DNA from: Flavonifractor sp. An112
GTDB lineage: Bacteria > Bacillota > Clostridia > Oscillospirales > Oscillospiraceae
Length of the DNA stretch: 46,681 nt
Direction of reading: 5' to 3'
NCBI RefSeq assembly: GCF_002161085.1
Contig: NZ_NFLU01000019.1
Coordinates: 1-46,681 of the forward strand
Below, in pieces: positions 24,013-33,407 of the stretch. The number at the start of each line of letters is the position of its first letter. The first letter of the stretch is position 1. Made by a program: the position numbers and the translations under genes. The notes under the pieces were generated by a model. That model saw only the letters and a list, made by a program, of their open reading frames with translations, made no database searches and had not been told where the DNA came from.

Positions 24013-24262
24013 GCATCAATTCCACTCCAAAATTTCATGTACAAAAGCGTTCCTCTTTTCTGTCAAATGATTCTCGTTTGGTTTTCCCCGGTTATTTTGT
24101 AAATTTTATTTTCTATATTCCAAAAAGTAATCGTCCACCCTGCTATTATGCTATATATTTCTTTCGTCCGTTCCCCGGCTCTGCATGATTGATGTATGCT
24201 TTTTTCATTTTCTGCTACTCCTCGCATCTGATTTCAGGCGGCTGGAATTCTGCTTCTCCCCA
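24013..24262. other. AT-rich intergenic stretch, nothing recognised
   Basis: This 250-base spacer is markedly more AT-rich than its surroundings. It has no supported gene, no strong hairpin and no recognised riboswitch. It leads into the kamB promoter and may simply insulate it. Confidence 0.5.
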
Positions 24263-24292
24263 TTGACAGAACCGATGGGGGCCTCTTATAAT
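24263..24292 (+). promoter_or_regulatory. Sigma-A promoter of kamB-kamC
   Basis: A perfect TTGACA (24263-24268) and perfect TATAAT (24287-24292) are 18 bases apart. Transcription would start near 24299, leaving a leader of about 48 bases to the TTG start at 24347, too short for a riboswitch. Confidence 0.88.
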
Positions 24293-24346
24293 GGCCTCGA
24301 CGAACTCAAAAATGACCCAATTTTCCTATGGAAGGGAGGCCCTATT

Positions 24347-25363
24347 TTGGAACATCTGTTAGCGCCGCTGGTGGGGGATGCCTCCCCCGTGACCGTGATC
24401 GGCCTGTGCAAGAACGCGGGCAAGACCACCGCCATGCGCCGCCTGATGGCCGAGTTGGGGGACGAGCGGCTGGCCCTCACCTCGGTGGGCCGGGACGGAG
24501 AGCGCACCGACCTGGTCACCGGGACCGAGAAGCCCGATCTGTACCTGAAAGCCGGCGATCTGTTCGCCACCGCCCGGGGCATGATCACGCTGTGCGACGC
24601 CACCCTGGAGGTGGTGGACCTGACCGACGTGATGACCCCCCTGGGACCGGTGGCTATTTTCCGCACTCTGTCTGACGGCTATGTGCAGCTGGCCGGTCCC
24701 TCTGCCGCCGGACAGCTGCGCCCCCTCACCGCTCGCTTCATGGAATTGGGGGCCCAGCGGGTCCTCATCGACGGGGCCGCCGGACGGAAGTCTCTGGCTG
24801 GCGCCGGTGTGGAGGGCGTGGCCCTGCTGTGTACCGGCGCCTCTCTGGACCGGGATATGGACCTGGTGGTATCGGAGACCGCCCACACCTGCTGGCTCTT
24901 TGACCGGAAAGTACCGGAGCACGCCGGCCTGCGTTCCGCCCTGGAGGGCGTGGAGGACCGCTTCGCCCTGTTCGAGCTGGACGGCACCCCTCTGGAGCTG
25001 CCCCTGGACGAAGGCGGCAGCCCCAAGTGGAACAAGCTGCCTCGCCGCCCCCTGGCGGTGTGGGCGTCGGGAGGGGTTACCGACCCCCTGCTCAAAACCC
25101 TGGCCCGCCGGGGCGCTCCCACTACCCTGGTCACTCAGGACGCCACCCACCTGCTGGCAGGCCGGGCCGCCCTGGAGCTGTTCCAGCGCAACGGCGGCCA
25201 ACTGGCTGTCCGCTGGGAGCTGACCATCGCCGCTGTGGCGGCCAACCCCTGGTCTGCCTACGGCTGGCACTTTGAACCGGATAAATTCATCTCCGCCCTG
25301 CGGCAGGCCATCCACCTGCCGGTGGTCAACGTGAAGGAGGATCATGATGGAACTGACGCATGA
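24347..25363 (+). CDS. kamB: Lysine 5,6-aminomutase reactivase subunit KamB
   Basis: A 338-residue protein with an N-terminal P-loop (GLCKNAGKTT, about 19-28) and the layout of KamB, partner of the MutS-like KamC. Together they are believed to restore lysine 5,6-aminomutase after its adenosylcobalamin is damaged. The start is assigned to TTG 24347: GGAAGGGAGG lies eight bases upstream, and a consensus promoter at 24263-24292 would place any upstream start outside the transcript. The family assignment also rests on kamC overlapping its end and the kam operon following directly. Confidence 0.83.
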   Translation: MEHLLAPLVGDASPVTVIGLCKNAGKTTAMRRLMAELGDERLALTSVGRDGERTDLVTGTEKPDLYLKAGDLFATARGMITLCDATLEVVDLTDVMTPLGPVAIFRTLSDGYVQLAGPSAAGQLRPLTARFMELGAQRVLIDGAAGRKSLAGAGVEGVALLCTGASLDRDMDLVVSETAHTCWLFDRKVPEHAGLRSALEGVEDRFALFELDGTPLELPLDEGGSPKWNKLPRRPLAVWASGGVTDPLLKTLARRGAPTTLVTQDATHLLAGRAALELFQRNGGQLAVRWELTIAAVAANPWSAYGWHFEPDKFISALRQAIHLPVVNVKEDHDGTDA

Positions 25364-26843
25364 ACTGCGGGAAAACGCAGGGTTTCAGTGGGTACTGAAC
25401 CGGCTGAGTCCCATGTCGCCGTTCGGCAAGGCGGCCGCCCGCTCCCTGCGGTGGTACGGCCCCGGAGAGGAGGCCGCCCTGGAGGAGGAGCTGGACAATG
25501 TGGCTCTGGCCATGGAGCTTTGGAACGCAGGCACCACCGCCCCTCAGACCGAGGGCTGCGGCTGCGGCCCGGTGCGGCTCACCGAGGCCGAGCGCAAGGA
25601 CGCCGCCGCCGCTCTGCGGGGTGTCACCCGCTGCCTGCCCCTGTTTCACGACATCCGGGGCTCCTTCGACCGGGACCCCGGCGCCCCCTTCGATCTGGTG
25701 GAGCTCTTTGAGATCAAGCATTTCCTGGTCACCCTGGAGCAGCTGGTCCAGGCCTATGCCGCTCTGCCCCCCATGGCCGGGCTGTCCTTCCCCTCCCTGG
25801 CTGACGCCCTGGAGCTGATGGACCCGGAGGGCCGCCGTCTGCCCACCTTCTCCGTTGTCAATTCCTACCACAACGACCTGGCACCCCTGCGCGCGGAGAA
25901 GGCCAAGCTGGAGAAGGCCATCCGCATGACCATGGAGGACAAGCGGGGCCCCCTGATGGAAAAGCGCCGTGTCCTGGCGGTGGAGGAGGATAAGCTGGAG
26001 CTGGAGGTCCGCCGGATGCTCACCGGCAAGCTGATGGCCTACAAGCAGGCCTTCCTGGACAACATGGAGACTCTGGGCCGTCTGGATCTCATCGTGGCCA
26101 AGGCCAAGCTGGCTCTGCGGTACAACTGCGTGCGGCCCGCCCTCAGCGCCGATAAATCCATCACCCTCCGGGGGGTGCGCCATCCCCAGGTGGAGGAGGA
26201 TCTGGCTGAGCGGGGCGAACAGTTTACCCTGCTGGATCTGGACCTGAAGCCGGGCTGCACCGTCATCACCGGCGCCAACATGGGCGGCAAGACCGTGTCT
26301 CTCCGCTCCACCGTGCTCTCCCTGCTTCTGTGCCAGTGCGGCTTCTTCGTCTTTGCCCAGTCCGCCGCCCTTCCCCTGTTCCACCGGGTGGAGCTCATCC
26401 TGGCCGACAGCGGCCCCGGCGCCGGCGGCCTGTCCTCCTTCGGCAAGGAAGTCCATCTGCTGGACAAGCTGCTGCGAGAGACCCACGGCCAGTTCTTCTT
26501 CGTGGCTCTGGACGAATTCGCCCGGGGCACCAACCCCCAGGAGGGCGCAGCCCTGGCCCGTGCTCTGGTGCGTCACCTGAGCAGTCTGGACTGCGTGGCC
26601 CTCATGACCACCCACTACGACGGGGTGTCCGACGTGGCCGCCGCCCACTACCAGGTGGCCGGTCTGGTGCGGGACATCCAGGGCGACGAGGGGGACGATC
26701 CCCGCAAGCGGATCGCCCGCCGGATGGACTACCGGCTCCTTCCCGCCCCTCCCGGAGCCCCCTGTCCCCGGGACGCCCTCCGGGTGTGCCGACTGCTCAA
26801 ACTGGACGATACCCTCATGGAACTCTTCCAGGCCGACCTGTAA
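25344..26843 (+). CDS. kamC: Lysine 5,6-aminomutase reactivase ATPase KamC (MutS-like)
   Basis: A 499-residue protein resembling the core and ATPase domains of MutS without the mismatch-binding domain. Walker A is GANMGGKT (310-317), the signature region 'ADSGPGAGGLSSFGKEV' follows, and Walker B is VALDEF (387-392) with 'ARGTNPQEG' and a His switch in 'MTTHYD'. This matches KamC rather than a DNA repair MutS. It overlaps kamB by 20 bases. ATG 25344 and ATG 25347 are both possible; the second is better spaced from GGAGG. Confidence 0.88.
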   Translation: MMELTHELRENAGFQWVLNRLSPMSPFGKAAARSLRWYGPGEEAALEEELDNVALAMELWNAGTTAPQTEGCGCGPVRLTEAERKDAAAALRGVTRCLPLFHDIRGSFDRDPGAPFDLVELFEIKHFLVTLEQLVQAYAALPPMAGLSFPSLADALELMDPEGRRLPTFSVVNSYHNDLAPLRAEKAKLEKAIRMTMEDKRGPLMEKRRVLAVEEDKLELEVRRMLTGKLMAYKQAFLDNMETLGRLDLIVAKAKLALRYNCVRPALSADKSITLRGVRHPQVEEDLAERGEQFTLLDLDLKPGCTVITGANMGGKTVSLRSTVLSLLLCQCGFFVFAQSAALPLFHRVELILADSGPGAGGLSSFGKEVHLLDKLLRETHGQFFFVALDEFARGTNPQEGAALARALVRHLSSLDCVALMTTHYDGVSDVAAAHYQVAGLVRDIQGDEGDDPRKRIARRMDYRLLPAPPGAPCPRDALRVCRLLKLDDTLMELFQADL

Positions 26844-26853
26844 ATTTTCCCTG

Positions 26854-26890
26854 CTCCGGCAGGCGGTTCACGCCGCCTGCCGGAGTTTTT
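26854..26890 (+). terminator. Intrinsic terminator after kamC
   Basis: CTCCGGCAGGCGG (26854-26866) pairs exactly with 26873-26885 around six bases and is followed by TTTTT. It separates kamBC from the riboswitch-controlled operon. Confidence 0.95.
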
Positions 26891-26995
26891 GCCCTTCCAG
26901 TTCTGGTTACCATTTGGTAAGCACTATCCCGCTGTAGCGTACAAAAGTCTACAGAACAGAGAAAAATTTTGTGAGCCTAATTTTTCAAAAAATAG

Positions 26996-27024
26996 TTGAC
27001 AAACAAAAACGGCTGGGTTATAGT
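26996..27024 (+). promoter_or_regulatory. Sigma-A promoter of the lysine-fermentation operon
   Basis: TTGACA (26996-27001) and TATAGT (27019-27024) are 17 bases apart. Transcription would start near 27031, just before the riboswitch, leaving a leader of more than 300 bases before kce. Confidence 0.88.
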
Positions 27025-27049
27025 GTTTTTGTCAAAAGTAAATAACACG

Positions 27050-27205
27050 CATGGATAGAGGCGCGGAGCGCAAGGTAGCAGAGCAATGATAAGGGCAGGC
27101 GAGCCCGATGTACTCTGTGAATGTCCGCTCCGCCGAAGGGGGACGTGAATCGTACAGCCCTCCCCCTGAGCCGTGGGCCCAGTGCTTACGGATTGTCATG
27201 AGTCA
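27050..27205 (+). ncRNA. Lysine riboswitch (L box)
   Basis: The conserved lysine-riboswitch blocks occur in order: ATAGAGGCGCG (27054-27064); GCGGAGCG (27063-27070) pairing exactly with CGCTCCGC (27126-27133) as P2; GCCGAAG (27132-27138); a P4 stem AGGGGG/CCCCCT (27137-27142 with 27162-27167); then GAGCCGTGGGC and a P5 stem GTGGGC/GCTTAC, and a closing TTGTCATGAGTC like the 3' strand of P1. The order matches the B. subtilis lysC element. It lies between a promoter and a terminator ahead of lysine-degradation genes, so lysine-induced expression is inferred. Exact ends and folding were judged by eye. Confidence 0.87.
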
Positions 27206-27280
27206 CATGAAGCGCTATTTGTGTCTGAACGAGAGTCTCCCCTCCCGCGGACATGAGTAGTGTTTTTTTGTTCATGAAGC

Positions 27281-27332
27281 GCTATCTCGCCGGAGGAATG
27301 GATCTCCTACCGGCGAGGTAGCTTTATTTTTT
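27281..27332 (+). terminator. Terminator of the riboswitch expression platform
   Basis: GCTATCTCGCCGG (27281-27293) pairs with 27310-27322, extended inward by AGGA/TCCT, and is followed by TTTATTTTTT. The kce ribosome site GAGGAGG begins two bases later. As the only strong terminator between the aptamer and the coding region, it is the likely point of control. Confidence 0.88.
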
Positions 27333-27346
27333 CGAGGAGGCGTGTC

Positions 27347-28165
27347 ATGGAAAAGCTTATTATCACCGCGGCCATCTGCGGCGCAGAGGTCACCAAAGAG
27401 CACAATCCCGCTGTCCCCTACACCGTGGAGGAAATGGTCCGCGAGGCCAAGAGCGCCTTTGATGCAGGCGCCGCTGTTATCCACGTCCACGTCCGCGAGG
27501 ACGATGGTACCCCCACTCAGGACCGGGAGCGGTTCCGGGTGATCCTGGACGCCATCAAGGAGGCCTGCCCCGGCGTGATCCTGATCCCCTCCACCGGCGG
27601 CGCCACCGGCATGACTCCCGAGGAGCGGCTCCAGCCCACCGAGCTGTGCCCCGAGATGGCCACTCTGGACTGCGGCACCTGCAACTTCGGCGACGACATC
27701 TTCGTCAACGATATGCCCACCATGCGGGCCTTCGGCAAGCGCATGATCGAAAACAACATCAAGCCCGAGTATGAGTGCTTCGAGATCGGCCACCTGGACA
27801 CCATCGTGAACATGGCCCACAAGGGTCTGGTCCCCGGCGCTCCCATGCAGTTCAACTTCGTGCTGGGCGTATCCGGCTGCACCCCCGCCACCGTGGGCAA
27901 CCTGGACTACCTGGTGAAGCAGATCCCCGCCGGTTCCACCTGGACCGTCACCGGCATCGGCCGGGGCGCCTGGCCCATGGTTGCCGCCGGCATCGTGATG
28001 GGCGGCAACGTCCGCGTGGGCTTCGAGGACAACATCTACCTGGAGAAGGGCCACAAGGCCGCCTCCAACGGCGAGCTGGTCGCCAAGGTGGTCCGCCTGG
28101 CCAAGGAGCTGGGCCGCGAGATCGCCACTCCCGATGAGGCCCGGAAGATCCTGTCCCTAGCCTGA
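27347..28165 (+). CDS. kce: 3-keto-5-aminohexanoate cleavage enzyme
   Basis: A 272-residue TIM-barrel enzyme that converts 3-keto-5-aminohexanoate and acetyl-CoA to acetoacetate and 3-aminobutyryl-CoA. The zinc ligands His46 and His48 lie in 'VIHVHVRE' at the same positions as in characterised Kce, and a conserved Glu (about 227, 'GFEDN') is the third. 'STGG' at 82-85 and 'FEIGH' at 145-149 are also family features. GAGGAGG lies six bases before the ATG, directly after the riboswitch terminator. It is the first gene of kce-kdd-kamA-kamD-kamE. Confidence 0.95.
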   Translation: MEKLIITAAICGAEVTKEHNPAVPYTVEEMVREAKSAFDAGAAVIHVHVREDDGTPTQDRERFRVILDAIKEACPGVILIPSTGGATGMTPEERLQPTELCPEMATLDCGTCNFGDDIFVNDMPTMRAFGKRMIENNIKPEYECFEIGHLDTIVNMAHKGLVPGAPMQFNFVLGVSGCTPATVGNLDYLVKQIPAGSTWTVTGIGRGAWPMVAAGIVMGGNVRVGFEDNIYLEKGHKAASNGELVAKVVRLAKELGREIATPDEARKILSLA

Positions 28166-28244: not shown

Positions 28245-29285
28245 ATGCAGAAGAAAGGCAACAAGTACGGCACTCACCGCGTCATCGAGCCCAAGGGCCT
28301 GCTGACCCAGGCTGCCAAGAAGATCGACAACACCATGGAGTGCTACTCCAATGAGATCCTGTGCGACGTTTCCGCTCTGAACATTGACTCCGCTTCCTTC
28401 ACCCAGATCTATGAGGCCTGTGAGAAGGACCTGGCCAAGACTGAGCAGATGATCCTGGATATCGTCAATGAGCGCGGCAAGATGCAGAACCCCGTCACCG
28501 GTTCCGGCGGTATGTTCATCGGCACCGTCCGTGAGATCGGCGAGGACCTGCAGGGCAAGATCGACCTGAAGGTGGGCGACAAGATCGCTTCTCTGGTCTC
28601 CCTGTCCCTGACTCCCCTGAAGATCAACAAGATCAAGGCCATCCACCCCGAGATCGACCGCGTGGACGTGGATGCCCAGGCTATCCTGTTTGAGTCCGGC
28701 CTGTATGCCAAGCTGCCCGACGACATGAGCGAGGAGCTGGCTCTGGCTGCTCTGGACGTGGCCGGCGCTCCCGCCCAGACCGCTAAGCTGGTGAAGCCCG
28801 GTGACTCCGTGCTCATCCTGGGCGGCGCCGGCAAGGGCGGCATGATGTGCTGCTACGAGGCCATGAAGCGCGTTGGCCCCACCGGCAACGTGGTTGCCCT
28901 GGTCATCTGCCAGGAGGACGCCGACCTGCTGAAGAGCATGAACCTGTGCCACCACGCCATCGTTGGCTCCGCCACCAACCCCACCGAGGTGCTGGAGAAG
29001 TCCCTGGCCGTCAACAACGGCAAGGAGTACGATGTCTCCATCCTGATCGTGAACGTGCCCGCCTGCGAGATGGCCGCCATCCTGCCCGTCCATGACAACG
29101 GCGTGGTGTACTTCTTCTCCATGGCCACCGATTTCGCCAAGGCTGCTCTGGGCGCCGAGGGCTGCGGCAAGGACGTCACCATGATCGTCGGCAACGGCTA
29201 CACCAAGGACCACGCCGAGATCACTCTGTCCGAGCTGCGTGAGAATCCCCAGCTGAAGGCCTACTTCGAGAAGAAGTATCTGTAA
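28245..29285 (+). CDS. kdd: L-erythro-3,5-diaminohexanoate dehydrogenase
   Basis: A 346-residue NAD-dependent dehydrogenase that oxidises 3,5-diaminohexanoate to 3-keto-5-aminohexanoate with release of ammonia. The Rossmann motif 'VLILGGAGKGGMMCCYEAMKR' (in parts, around residue 190) and the upstream 'LVKPGD' resemble medium-chain dehydrogenases, but the N-terminus 'KKGNKYGTHRVIEPKGLLTQAA' is Kdd-specific. CAGGAGGAAC precedes the ATG. Its last 52 bases are repeated 204 bases downstream. Confidence 0.95.
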   Translation: MQKKGNKYGTHRVIEPKGLLTQAAKKIDNTMECYSNEILCDVSALNIDSASFTQIYEACEKDLAKTEQMILDIVNERGKMQNPVTGSGGMFIGTVREIGEDLQGKIDLKVGDKIASLVSLSLTPLKINKIKAIHPEIDRVDVDAQAILFESGLYAKLPDDMSEELALAALDVAGAPAQTAKLVKPGDSVLILGGAGKGGMMCCYEAMKRVGPTGNVVALVICQEDADLLKSMNLCHHAIVGSATNPTEVLEKSLAVNNGKEYDVSILIVNVPACEMAAILPVHDNGVVYFFSMATDFAKAALGAEGCGKDVTMIVGNGYTKDHAEITLSELRENPQLKAYFEKKYL

Positions 29286-29715: not shown

Positions 29716-30969
29716 ATGGTAGAGTCCCGCCGTAAGATCCTGTTCCCCGATGTGACTGACGAGCAGTGGAACGACTGGCATTGGCAAGTCAAGAACCGCA
29801 TCGAGACTCTGGAGGACCTGAAGAAGTATGTGGATCTGACCCCCGAGGAAGAGGAAGGCGTTAAGGCCTGCCTCGGCACCCTCCGCATGGCCATCACTCC
29901 TTATTATCTGTCCCTGATTCAGCCCGGCGATCCTCACGATCCCGTCCGGCTGCAGGCCGTCCCCACCGCCAAGGAGCTGCATCAGTCCGCCGCCGACCTG
30001 CTGGACCCCCTGCACGAGGATGAGGACTCCCCCGCTCCCGGTCTGACCCACCGCTATCCTGACCGCTGCCTGCTGCTGATCACCGACCAGTGTTCCATGT
30101 ACTGCCGTCACTGCACCCGCCGCCGCTTCGCCGGTCAGAACGACGCCGGCCTGCCCGTGGATCAGGTGGATCAGGCCATCGAGTACATCCGCAACACTCC
30201 CGTCATCCGTGACGTGCTGCTCTCCGGCGGCGACGCTCTGCTCTGCTCCGACGAGCGCCTGGAGTACATCATCGCCAAGCTGCGTGAGATCCCCCACGTG
30301 GAGATCGTCCGCATCGGCTCCCGTACCCCCGTGGTGCTGCCTCAGCGTATCACTCCCGAGCTGTGCAATATGCTGAAGAAGTATCATCCCATCTGGCTGA
30401 ACACCCACTTCAACCATCCCAACGAGATCACCCCCGAGTCCGCCAAGGCCTGCGCCATGCTGGCTGACGCCGGTATCCCTCTGGGCAACCAGAGCGTGCT
30501 GCTGGCCGGCATCAACGACTGCGTCTACACCATGAAGAAGCTGGTCAACGAGCTGGTCAGAATCCGGGTGCGCCCCTACTACATCTATCAGTGCGACCTG
30601 TCCATGGGCCTGGAGCACTTCCGTACTCCCGTCAGCAAGGGCATCGAGATCATCGAGGGCCTGCGCGGTCATACCTCCGGCTTCTGCGTGCCCACCTTCG
30701 TGGTGGACGCCCCCGGCGGCGGCGGCAAGACTCCCGTCATGCCTCAGTACGTCATCTCCCAGACCCCCAAGAAGGTCATCCTGCGCAACTACGAGGGCGT
30801 TATCACCACTTACACCGAGCCCGAGCACTACACCGATTGTCAGTGCGACTACTGCACCGGCAAGAAGAAGAAGGAGCTCATGGGTGTGGCCGGCCTGGAG
30901 CGCGGCCAGGCGCTCTCCATGGAGCCCGCCAACCTGGAGCGTCATAAGCGCTCCCACCACGAGGAGTAA
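29716..30969 (+). CDS. kamA: L-lysine 2,3-aminomutase
   Basis: A 417-residue radical-SAM, PLP-dependent enzyme that converts L-lysine to L-beta-lysine, the first step of the pathway. The cluster motif CSMYCRHC supplies Cys126, Cys130 and Cys133. The PLP lysine lies in 'PGGGGKTPVMP' (Lys338, aligned with Lys337 of the clostridial enzyme). Cys269 and the C-terminal CQCDYC (375, 377, 380) fit the structural zinc ligands. AAAGGATGACC precedes the ATG. A stable hairpin separates it from kamD. Confidence 0.96.
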   Translation: MVESRRKILFPDVTDEQWNDWHWQVKNRIETLEDLKKYVDLTPEEEEGVKACLGTLRMAITPYYLSLIQPGDPHDPVRLQAVPTAKELHQSAADLLDPLHEDEDSPAPGLTHRYPDRCLLLITDQCSMYCRHCTRRRFAGQNDAGLPVDQVDQAIEYIRNTPVIRDVLLSGGDALLCSDERLEYIIAKLREIPHVEIVRIGSRTPVVLPQRITPELCNMLKKYHPIWLNTHFNHPNEITPESAKACAMLADAGIPLGNQSVLLAGINDCVYTMKKLVNELVRIRVRPYYIYQCDLSMGLEHFRTPVSKGIEIIEGLRGHTSGFCVPTFVVDAPGGGGKTPVMPQYVISQTPKKVILRNYEGVITTYTEPEHYTDCQCDYCTGKKKKELMGVAGLERGQALSMEPANLERHKRSHHEE

Positions 30970-31053: not shown

Positions 31054-32622
31054 ATGTTGGAATCCAAGCTGAACCTTGATTTTAAGCTGGTGGAACAGGC
31101 CCGCGCTCACGCTTCCCGTGTGGCGGACGACACCCAGCGTTTCATCGACGGCTGCACCACCGTGGCCGTGGAGCGTACCATCTGCCGCCTGCTGGGCATC
31201 GACGGTGTGGACGCCGGCGACGTGCCTCTGCCCAACGTGGTTGTGGAGCACCTGATGGACAAGGGCGCTCTGCCTCAGGGCGCCGCTTTCTGGATCGGCA
31301 ACGCCATGGTGGAGACCGGTAAGGATCCCCAGGCCATCGCCGAGGACGTAGCCAACGACAAGCTGGACCTGACCGCTCTGCCCACCCACAGCGAGGCCGA
31401 GATCCACGCCGCTCTGGATCCCATTGTGGAGGCCAGCCTGGCCAAGATCCGCGCCCGCCGCAAGCGCCGCGAGGACTTCATCGCCACCCACGGCGGTGAG
31501 AAGCAGGGCCCCTGGATCTACCTGATCGTGGCCACCGGCAACATCTATGAGGACGTTGTGCAGGCCACCGCCGCCGCCCGCCAGGGCGCCGACGTCATCG
31601 CCGTCATCCGCACCACCGGCCAGTCCCTGCTGGACTATGTGCCTTACGGCGCCACCACTGAGGGCTTCGGCGGCACCTACGCCACTCAGGAGAACTTCCG
31701 CCTGATGCGCGAGGCCATGGACAAGGTGGGCGAGGAGCTGGGCCGTTACATCCGCGTGTGTAACTACTGCTCCGGCCTGTGTATGCCCGAGATCGCCGCC
31801 ATGGGCGCCTTCGAGGGTCTGGACGTGATGCTGAACGACGCTCTGTACGGCATCCTGTTCCGCGACATCAATATGCAGCGTACCCTGGTGGACCAGTCCT
31901 TCTCCCGCGCCATCAACGCCTATGCAGGCGTGGTCATCAACACCGGCGAGGACAACTACCTGACCACCGCCGACGCTGTGGAAGAGGCTCACACCGTGCT
32001 GGCCTCCCAGTTCCTCAACGAGGCTTTCGCCCTGCGGGCCGGCCTGCCCGAGGAGCAGATGGGTCTGGGTCACGCCTTTGAGATCGACCCCGACGTGGAG
32101 AACGGCTTCCTGTATGAGCTGGCCCAGGCCGAGATGGCCCGGGAGATCTTCCCCAACGCTCCCCTGAAGTATATGCCTCCCACCAAGTTCATGACCGGCA
32201 ACATCTTCCGCGGCCACGTTCAGGACGCCCTGTTCAACATGGTGACCATCCTGACCAACCAGAAGATCCACCTGCTGGGCATGATGACCGAGGCCATTCA
32301 TACTCCCTTCCTGTCCGACCGCTTCCTGGCCATCCAGAACGCCCAGTACATCTTCCGCACCATGCACGACCTGGGCAGCGAGATCGTCTTCAAGGAAGGC
32401 GGTATCATGCAGAACCGTGCTGCCGACGTGCTGCACAAGGCTACCGATCTGCTGGGCCAGATCGAGCAGCTGGGCATTTTCGAGACCCTGGAGCGGGGCA
32501 TCTTTGCCGACATCAAGCGTCCTCGCGACGGCGGCAAGGGCCTGGACGGCGTTGTGACCAAGGCCGCCGGGTACTTCAACCCCTTCCTTGAGCCCATGAT
32601 GAAAGGGGGTGCCGGCAAATGA
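31054..32622 (+). CDS. kamD: D-lysine 5,6-aminomutase alpha subunit
   Basis: A 522-residue TIM-barrel subunit that carries most PLP and substrate contacts of the adenosylcobalamin-dependent 5,6-aminomutase, which turns beta-lysine into 3,5-diaminohexanoate. Segments such as 'DDTQRFIDGCTTVAVERTICRLLGIDGVD' (in parts), 'RTTGQSLLDYVPYGATTEGFGG' (in parts) and 'MPPTKFMTGNIFRGH' are diagnostic. Its stop overlaps the kamE start by four bases, fitting one-to-one synthesis of the two subunits. Confidence 0.96.
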   Translation: MLESKLNLDFKLVEQARAHASRVADDTQRFIDGCTTVAVERTICRLLGIDGVDAGDVPLPNVVVEHLMDKGALPQGAAFWIGNAMVETGKDPQAIAEDVANDKLDLTALPTHSEAEIHAALDPIVEASLAKIRARRKRREDFIATHGGEKQGPWIYLIVATGNIYEDVVQATAAARQGADVIAVIRTTGQSLLDYVPYGATTEGFGGTYATQENFRLMREAMDKVGEELGRYIRVCNYCSGLCMPEIAAMGAFEGLDVMLNDALYGILFRDINMQRTLVDQSFSRAINAYAGVVINTGEDNYLTTADAVEEAHTVLASQFLNEAFALRAGLPEEQMGLGHAFEIDPDVENGFLYELAQAEMAREIFPNAPLKYMPPTKFMTGNIFRGHVQDALFNMVTILTNQKIHLLGMMTEAIHTPFLSDRFLAIQNAQYIFRTMHDLGSEIVFKEGGIMQNRAADVLHKATDLLGQIEQLGIFETLERGIFADIKRPRDGGKGLDGVVTKAAGYFNPFLEPMMKGGAGK

Positions 32623-33407
32623 GTTCCGGACTGTATCAGATTCGCGATAAGGACCTTGACACCACGCTGGACCTGACCCGGCTGAAACCCTATGGCGACA
32701 CCATGAACGACGGCAAGGTGCAGCTCTCCTTCACCCTGCCCGTTAAGGACGACGACAAGGGCGCCGCGGCTGCCGTGCTCATGGCTCAGAAGATGGGCCT
32801 GGCCGACCCCAACGTGGCTCTCCGCCAGAAGCTGGACGAGGCCTTCACCTTCTATGTGGTGTACGGCTCCCTCACCCACTCCATCAACTACAACGAGATC
32901 GTGGTGCAGACCGTGGCTGACGAGGCCATGAGCATGGACGAGACCGATGAGTTCCTGAGGGAGCGGCTGGGCCGCAAGCTGGTGGTGGTAGGCGCCTCCA
33001 CCGGCACCGACGCTCACACCGTAGGCATCGACGCCATCATGAACCGCAAGGGCTTTGCCGGCCACTACGGCCTGGAGCGCTATGAGATGATCGAGGCCTA
33101 CAACCTGGGTTCCCAGGTGCCCAACGAGGAGTTCCTCAAGAAGGCTGCCGAGGTCAACGCCGACGTGCTGCTGGTGTCCCAGACCGTGACCCAGAAGGAC
33201 GTCCACATCCAGAACCTCACCGAGCTCATCGAGCTGGCCGAGGCCGAGGGTGTCCGCGAGAAGTACATCTTCTGCTGCGGCGGCGCCCGTATCACCCACG
33301 CTCTGGCCAAGGAGCTGGGCTATGACGCTGGCTTCGGTGCCGGTACCTACGCCGACGACGTGGCCACCTTCTGCGCCAAGGAAATGGTCCGCCGCCTGGG
33401 TAAGTAA
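32619..33407 (+). CDS. kamE: D-lysine 5,6-aminomutase beta subunit
   Basis: A 262-residue B12-binding subunit. The cobalt ligand motif DAHTVG gives His133, and the PLP Schiff-base lysine falls at Lys144 (AIMNRKG). Both have exactly the numbering known for the clostridial enzyme. A Rossmann-like B12 domain follows ('ADVLLVSQTVTQKDVH', 'KYIFCCGGARITHALAKELGYDAGFGAGT', in parts). It is the last gene of the operon and is followed by a strong terminator. Confidence 0.96.
   Translation: MSSGLYQIRDKDLDTTLDLTRLKPYGDTMNDGKVQLSFTLPVKDDDKGAAAAVLMAQKMGLADPNVALRQKLDEAFTFYVVYGSLTHSINYNEIVVQTVADEAMSMDETDEFLRERLGRKLVVVGASTGTDAHTVGIDAIMNRKGFAGHYGLERYEMIEAYNLGSQVPNEEFLKKAAEVNADVLLVSQTVTQKDVHIQNLTELIELAEAEGVREKYIFCCGGARITHALAKELGYDAGFGAGTYADDVATFCAKEMVRRLGK

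Follow-up and report, generated by a model that had tools for sequence, protein, structure and literature searches.

A putative lysine-activated leader with one aptamer and a duplicated closing segment ahead of the kce operon of Flavonifractor sp. An112

The stretch of DNA analysed here (the window) comprises 46,681 nucleotides of contig NZ_NFLU01000019.1 from Flavonifractor sp. An112 and contains the lysine-degradation operon kce-kdd-kamA-kamD-kamE, the five genes of which all score above their NCBIfam equivalog cut-offs. A first-pass annotation had placed a promoter, an aptamer and a terminator ahead of this operon, and all three can be located (Table 1). The promoter-like site, TTGACA-17-TATAGT, is the single match in 7 kb, against 1.5 expected by chance, but both of its hexamers are identical in 14 of 14 aligned Flavonifractor-type leaders. 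Just 5' of the promoter lies an inverted repeat, ACAAAA...TTTTGT (26941-26972), which is possibly a regulator site; its ACAAAA arm is found in 13 and the exact TTTTGT arm in 9 of the same 14 leaders. The upstream genes kamB and kamC end in a terminator-like hairpin of their own, so that the leader seems to be the start of a separate transcription unit, and kamB and kamC seem to lie outside the control of the kce-side lysine riboswitch. The leader RNA folds more stably than 100 of 100 shuffled versions (z −5.15). Its minimum-energy fold pairs the 5' end of the RNA (27045-27050) with 27340-27345, near the ribosome-binding site and start codon, a pairing that could be a translational layer or chance.

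Table 1. Coordinates of the leader features and genes of the kce operon and its surroundings in the window.
Feature	Position	Strand	Basis or remarks
kamB + kamC, lysine 5,6-aminomutase reactivase	24185-26843		profile match; directly upstream of leader
Terminator-like hairpin 3' of kamB/kamC	26854-26885		sequence inspection
Sigma-70-like promoter TTGACA-17-TATAGT	26996-27024	+	hexamer match; same hexamers in aligned leaders
Lysine riboswitch aptamer RF00168	27048-27225	+	cmscan 64.5 bits, E 1.1e-14, full length
P1 5' strand	27049-27058	+	Rfam alignment, folds; core GGAUAG 27053-27058
P5 5' strand UCAUG	27196-27200	+	Rfam alignment, fold
Segment A, the aptamer's own closing segment	27206-27220	+	P5 3' strand CAUGA, J5/1 AGCG, P1 3' strand CUAUUU
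Terminator T1	27209-27266	+	19-bp helix, 20-nt loop; U tract 27263-27269
Segment B, T1 3' arm	27248-27266	+	alternative partner: C
Segment C	27273-27287	+	CAUGA, AGCG, CUAUCU; copy of CAUGA-AGCG-CUAUUU (27206-27220)
Terminator T2	27281-27322	+	−29.9 kcal/mol; U tract 27323-27332
Ribosome-binding site AGGAGG	27335-27340	+	sequence inspection
kce, 3-keto-5-aminohexanoate cleavage enzyme	27347-28165	+	NF052387, 419 bits, cut-off 382
kdd, L-erythro-3,5-diaminohexanoate dehydrogenase	28245-29285	+	NF052381
kamA, lysine 2,3-aminomutase	29716-30969	+	TIGR03820
kamD, lysine 5,6-aminomutase alpha	31054-32622	+	NF052384
kamE, lysine 5,6-aminomutase beta	32619-33407	+	NF052385

The aptamer belongs to the lysine riboswitch family RF00168 by its covariance-model score, more than twice the gathering score of 30 bits, and by its location before genes of lysine metabolism or transport, here kce-kdd-kamADE; the earlier identification of a lysine riboswitch in front of a lysine-degradation operon is upheld by both. 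It is the one RF00168 match in the window, which therefore lacks the two complete aptamers of a tandem riboswitch. Two hairpins with U tracts follow it. The first, T1, holds in its 5' arm 6 of 6 core nucleotides of the aptamer's P1 3' strand, which is the arrangement of pbuE-type ON riboswitches and differs from the P1-independent terminator with antiterminator of the lysC-type OFF design. Since the P1 3' strand is common to P1 and T1, the closed aptamer and T1 are mutually exclusive, and this exclusion is the anatomy of an ON switch. The second, T2, is a strong hairpin followed by UUUAUUUUUU (27323-27332) and ends 5' of the ribosome-binding site. It lacks the aptamer's own P1 strand and starts with a copy of that strand. 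A 13-base repeat, CATGAAGCGCTAT, is present at 27206-27218 and 27273-27285. The first-pass annotation had recognised a single terminator before 27323-27332 and had lysine binding disrupt it. T2 is indeed present there, but T1 and the repeat upstream had been missed, and it is T1 that shares the P1 strand, the terminator named having only the copy.

A search for RF00168 across 120 genomes of the family gave matches in 94 of them; two of the 138 matches listed come from the An112 genome itself. Ten of these 138 riboswitches precede kal, kce or kdd, as judged by tblastn. Coupling of the ON type, in which a U-tailed hairpin has the P1 3' strand in its 5' arm, was found in 10 of 10 catabolic riboswitches versus 5 of 128 others (Fisher p 6e-12, uncorrected for kinship), the 128 including three (L094, L105 and L147) with too little downstream DNA to name a gene. 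These counts come from a strict helix test. It replaced a looser one that passed 91 of 91 catabolic riboswitches but also 28 of the 128 others and was unspecific because it accepts antiterminators and composite folds, a fault shared by the first terminator scan. Four of the five coupled non-catabolic riboswitches precede asd homologues, and their coupled hairpin is overlapped by a later terminator and hence looks like an antiterminator. The fifth, L087, precedes an ORF whose cluster representative is Na+/H+-antiporter-like, and the only long U-tailed hairpin found there contains the P1 strand; this riboswitch may also be of the ON type, which would fit an exporter.

A classical OFF switch as in lysC, with lysine promoting termination, is what the family at large would lead one to expect, given that most lysine riboswitches are regarded as OFF switches and that 126 of the 128 non-catabolic riboswitches have a P1-independent terminator. 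The shared strand, by which a closed aptamer prevents T1, the catabolic gene context and the distribution of coupling all speak against it at kce, and we regard it as highly improbable. The kce leader is instead very probably a lysine-activated (ON) transcriptional switch, a prediction from anatomy and comparison that backs the ON control claimed earlier. The first ORF after each riboswitch was chosen mechanically and one representative was scanned per cluster; the commonest other clusters were antiporter-like (31, below curated cut-offs), amino-acid ABC transporter-like (29), dapA (25), asd (20) and lysA (5). The second lysine riboswitch of the An112 genome (L001; C40:21908-22080, minus strand) precedes a member of the asd cluster; its terminator lies 44-74 nt past the aptamer and outside P1, an OFF-type platform. 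Two riboswitches of the ON type (L216 and L217) lie directly before kdd in genomes where a further such riboswitch precedes kal/kce or kce (L208 and L218), such that split fermentation operons each have a switch of their own.

The association of the aptamer with kce was followed in 80 named loci, chosen for best KCE similarity. A lysine aptamer lies upstream of kce, or, in loci where it comes first, of an ORF treated as kal, in 74 of the 80. The remaining six are L019, L060, L068 and L072 (both Porphyromonas), L070 and L077; in five of them a cmscan run at gathering scores gave no RF00168 match, and the sixth, L060, has 402 nt of upstream DNA. For L019, an additional kce copy of Flavonifractor plautii, no lysine riboswitch was detected within the DNA fetched. 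By the strict helix test, the P1 3' strand lies in a U-tailed hairpin in 70 of the 74 loci with an aptamer, the failures being L014 and L016, with no adequate U tail after the hairpin, and L052 and L074, in which, on inspection, the helix rule is violated by interior loops. A family-wide search matched KCE in 42 of 400 genomes, and 29 of the 30 family loci fetched, which include the An112 locus and overlap the named set, have the aptamer, the one miss (L246) being at a contig edge. In a sample of the phylum KCE was matched in 88 of 398 genomes, that of An112 included, and RF00168 was found in 3 of the 29 further loci fetched, all 29 of which lie outside the family.

Segment C, with which the 5' side of T2 begins, shares with segment A the ability to pair with the P1 and P5 strands of the aptamer. 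Among 91 distinct leaders drawn from 116, many of them close kin, a copy of this kind stands ahead of a U-tailed hairpin in 35, the window leader included. The 35 are made up of 34 kept from 36 flagged leaders (L041 and L045 were dropped, segment A being misplaced in them) and L014, added by hand. Since C was sought by the single motif G[CT]GCT[AG]T, degenerate copies would be missed among the 56 leaders to which none was assigned. Two leaders with a second U-tailed hairpin, L020 and L213, lack an intact C and were left out of the two-terminator class. Counting G-U pairs, the P5 5' strand pairs with C at 5 of 5 positions in 31 of the 35 leaders and the P1 5' strand at 6 of 6 positions in 28. 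C often differs so as to match P1, as in GGAUAG/CUAUCC, CAAUAG/CUAUUG and GAAUAG/CUGUUC. For P5 the covariation rests on one lineage (L079 and L082), in which UCGUC is matched by GACGG in C and just 4 of 6 P1:C pairs are kept. When C was permuted among 21 distinct rows, the observed 118 of 126 P1:C pairs (mean 113.4) was equalled or exceeded in 8 of 5,000 permutations and the observed 100 of 105 P5:C pairs (mean 95.0) in 21 of 5,000. The pairing of C is thus somewhat above permutation, an excess that is small and uncorrected for kinship; C began as a copy of A, and much of its complementarity is therefore inherited. In four leaders (L010, L226, L227 and L243) segment A has the J5/1 sequence UGCG, off the lysine-aptamer consensus, and C has AGCG, and there C may be the better closing strand.

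The conservation of C was assessed in the 14 Flavonifractor-type leaders, all of which have an identical CAUGAAGCG in C (9 of 9 columns). Over its whole length C is conserved in 13 of 15 columns, to be compared with 137 of 176 for the aptamer, 2 of 6 for the rest of the T2 5' arm, 0 of 16 for the T2 loop and 6 of 13 for the T2 3' arm. The conservation of CAUGAAGC is not accounted for by T2, whose stem in the window does not include it. These values bear on a simpler reading of the locus, in which lysine controls T1 only, T2 is an unregulated brake and C is a remnant of the duplication. C is not required for ON control, as the 56 leaders not assigned a C indicate, and the T2 of L025 resembles a T1 unit recently copied in tandem, as such a reading would have it. 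However, a strong unregulated terminator would block the operon, and C is conserved at the level of the aptamer while the rest of T2 is not. Moreover, in four Oscillibacter leaders (L014-L017) the U tract after the A:B hairpin is interrupted or displaced, with the hairpin, C and T2 all kept; L014 and L016 fail the U-tail filter and L015 and L017 just pass it. In these, little would be left at T1 for lysine to act on, and their sequences hint at control through C. We consider control of T1 only to be quite improbable.

We propose instead, and on balance hold to be probable, that a single aptamer is read at two successive checkpoints, one for each of two terminators that incorporate separate copies of the closing segment. 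At the first checkpoint lysine would hold A in P1 and P5, so that A:B pairing could not take place and T1 would be absent, whereas without lysine A:B would form T1 and transcription would stop. Past T1, C would close the same aptamer again, with the T1 hairpin inside P5. At the second checkpoint lysine would hold C and block T2 (C:D), and without lysine T2 would stop those polymerases that had leaked through T1. In its fuller form, with the single aptamer closing, being dismantled by T1 and re-closing around T1 before T2, so that one site gives two ligand checks, in a design gained or lost several times, the proposal is plausible to us but falls a little short of probable. The aptamer, the genes, the P1 3' strand pairing either in P1 or in T1, and the copy C with its complementarity to P1 and P5 and its conservation are seen in the sequences, and the order of minimum-energy folds is computed, whereas lysine binding, termination at both T1 and T2, and a hand-over in time from A to C are inferred.

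Folding computations, in which energies exclude lysine, magnesium, tertiary contacts and pseudoknots, are consistent with such an order of events. In RNA ending just after C, the C-closed form is more stable than the A-closed form in 34 of 34 leaders folded, by 4.6-19.4 kcal/mol (13.4 kcal/mol in the window), as the T1 hairpin can be retained within P5. In unconstrained folds, where closed means at least 4 of 6 P1 pairs and at least 3 of 5 P5 pairs, 35 of 35 leaders are A-closed when the RNA stops just past A. When it stops at C, 25 of 35 are C-closed and 0 of 35 A-closed, and in the other 10 the minimum-energy fold is without full C closure. Controls with C shuffled were C-closed in 0 of 2,100. 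As the window RNA is lengthened, the computed minimum-energy fold is A-closed to 27245, has T1 at 27262-27270, is C-closed at 27287-27310 and has T2 from 27323. In 34 of 34 leaders, once T2 has been transcribed, both aptamer-closed folds are less stable than the free fold, which in the window consists of T1 and T2, so switching must be kinetic.

The weak point of the two-checkpoint proposal is that a firm hold of lysine on A might leave C unpaired, with the result that T2 would terminate even in the presence of lysine. At full length, the A-closed form that leaves C to T2 beats the C-closed form in 14 of the 34 leaders, the window leader not among them. T2 could be kept off while A is still bound by a fast hand-over from A to C or by pairing of C with B, both being possible because C is a copy of A and shares its partners. 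The second route can also be framed as a mechanism of its own, in which lysine holds A in P1 and the freed B pairs with C as an antiterminator against T2, whereas without lysine A:B and C:D form; control would be ON and C would never close the aptamer. This accounts for T2 being off while A is held. A B:C hairpin of −11.5 kcal/mol is computed for the window, and the pairing is also present in the five A-closed folds inspected (L002, L010, L022, L079 and L208). However, B:C is weaker than T2. Furthermore, it covers C only from 27276 onward. The CAU at 27273-27275, part of the P5 copy, belongs neither to the B:C hairpin nor to the T2 stem and is left unexplained, although it is identical in 14 of 14 aligned leaders. 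As the sole mechanism we think B:C pairing, the leading alternative, rather unlikely, but it and re-closure of the aptamer by C can act together.

On a KCE tree of 75 rows, with 24 of 67 inner branches open, the distribution of one and two terminators requires 6 changes, of which at least 5 are forced by starred branches, and the design has thus been repeatedly gained or lost, or has moved between lineages. In L025 T2 is a near copy of that leader's own T1 unit, which suggests a route by which T2 arises. If the two-checkpoint reading is correct, an aptamer read twice would give tighter repression or a sharper response by way of a short duplication of the closing strand and without a second aptamer; such a route would be simple for evolution to take and reusable as a design idea. 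Natural leaders with one terminator and with two provide matched comparisons. Lysine fermentation, of which butyrate is a product, is a process of interest in gut bacteria in its own right, and a switch turned on by lysine offers a testable mechanism for its control.

Among known riboswitches, the ON-type adenine riboswitch of Bacillus subtilis pbuE likewise shares its P1 3' strand with the 5' arm of a terminator. To our knowledge, pbuE has one terminator and no copy of the closing strand, so that of the two only the window leader has a second terminator and segment C. The lysC (L-box) OFF riboswitch, with its P1-independent terminator and antiterminator, has the same aptamer and the opposite logic. 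Closest to the present leader are the lysine riboswitches before kal/kce with proposed positive control in section 13 of PMC5584792 and the lysine riboswitches of the ON type mentioned in PMC2258182, where Rodionov et al. 2003 is cited; the relevant passages name C. sticklandii, F. nucleatum and two Thermoanaerobacter. The kal/kce riboswitches described there have the aptamer class, pathway and proposed positive control in common with the window leader but, unlike it, are described in these passages with neither a duplicated closing segment nor a pair of terminators. A lysine covariation model has also been published (2026; PMC13273304). In the portions of the open-licence literature covered by our search we found no description of a single aptamer serving two terminators that are built on duplicates of its closing strand. 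Thus, ON lysine control before catabolic genes has already been proposed in print, and it is the two-terminator platform that looks new. Its nearest functional counterparts would be the pseudo-cooperative tandem riboswitches, 14 double lysine riboswitches among them in the part of the review PMC9481103 that treats them, which also provide two checkpoints for one ligand; they do so with two complete aptamers, whereas the window leader has one aptamer and a 15-nt copy of its 3' end.
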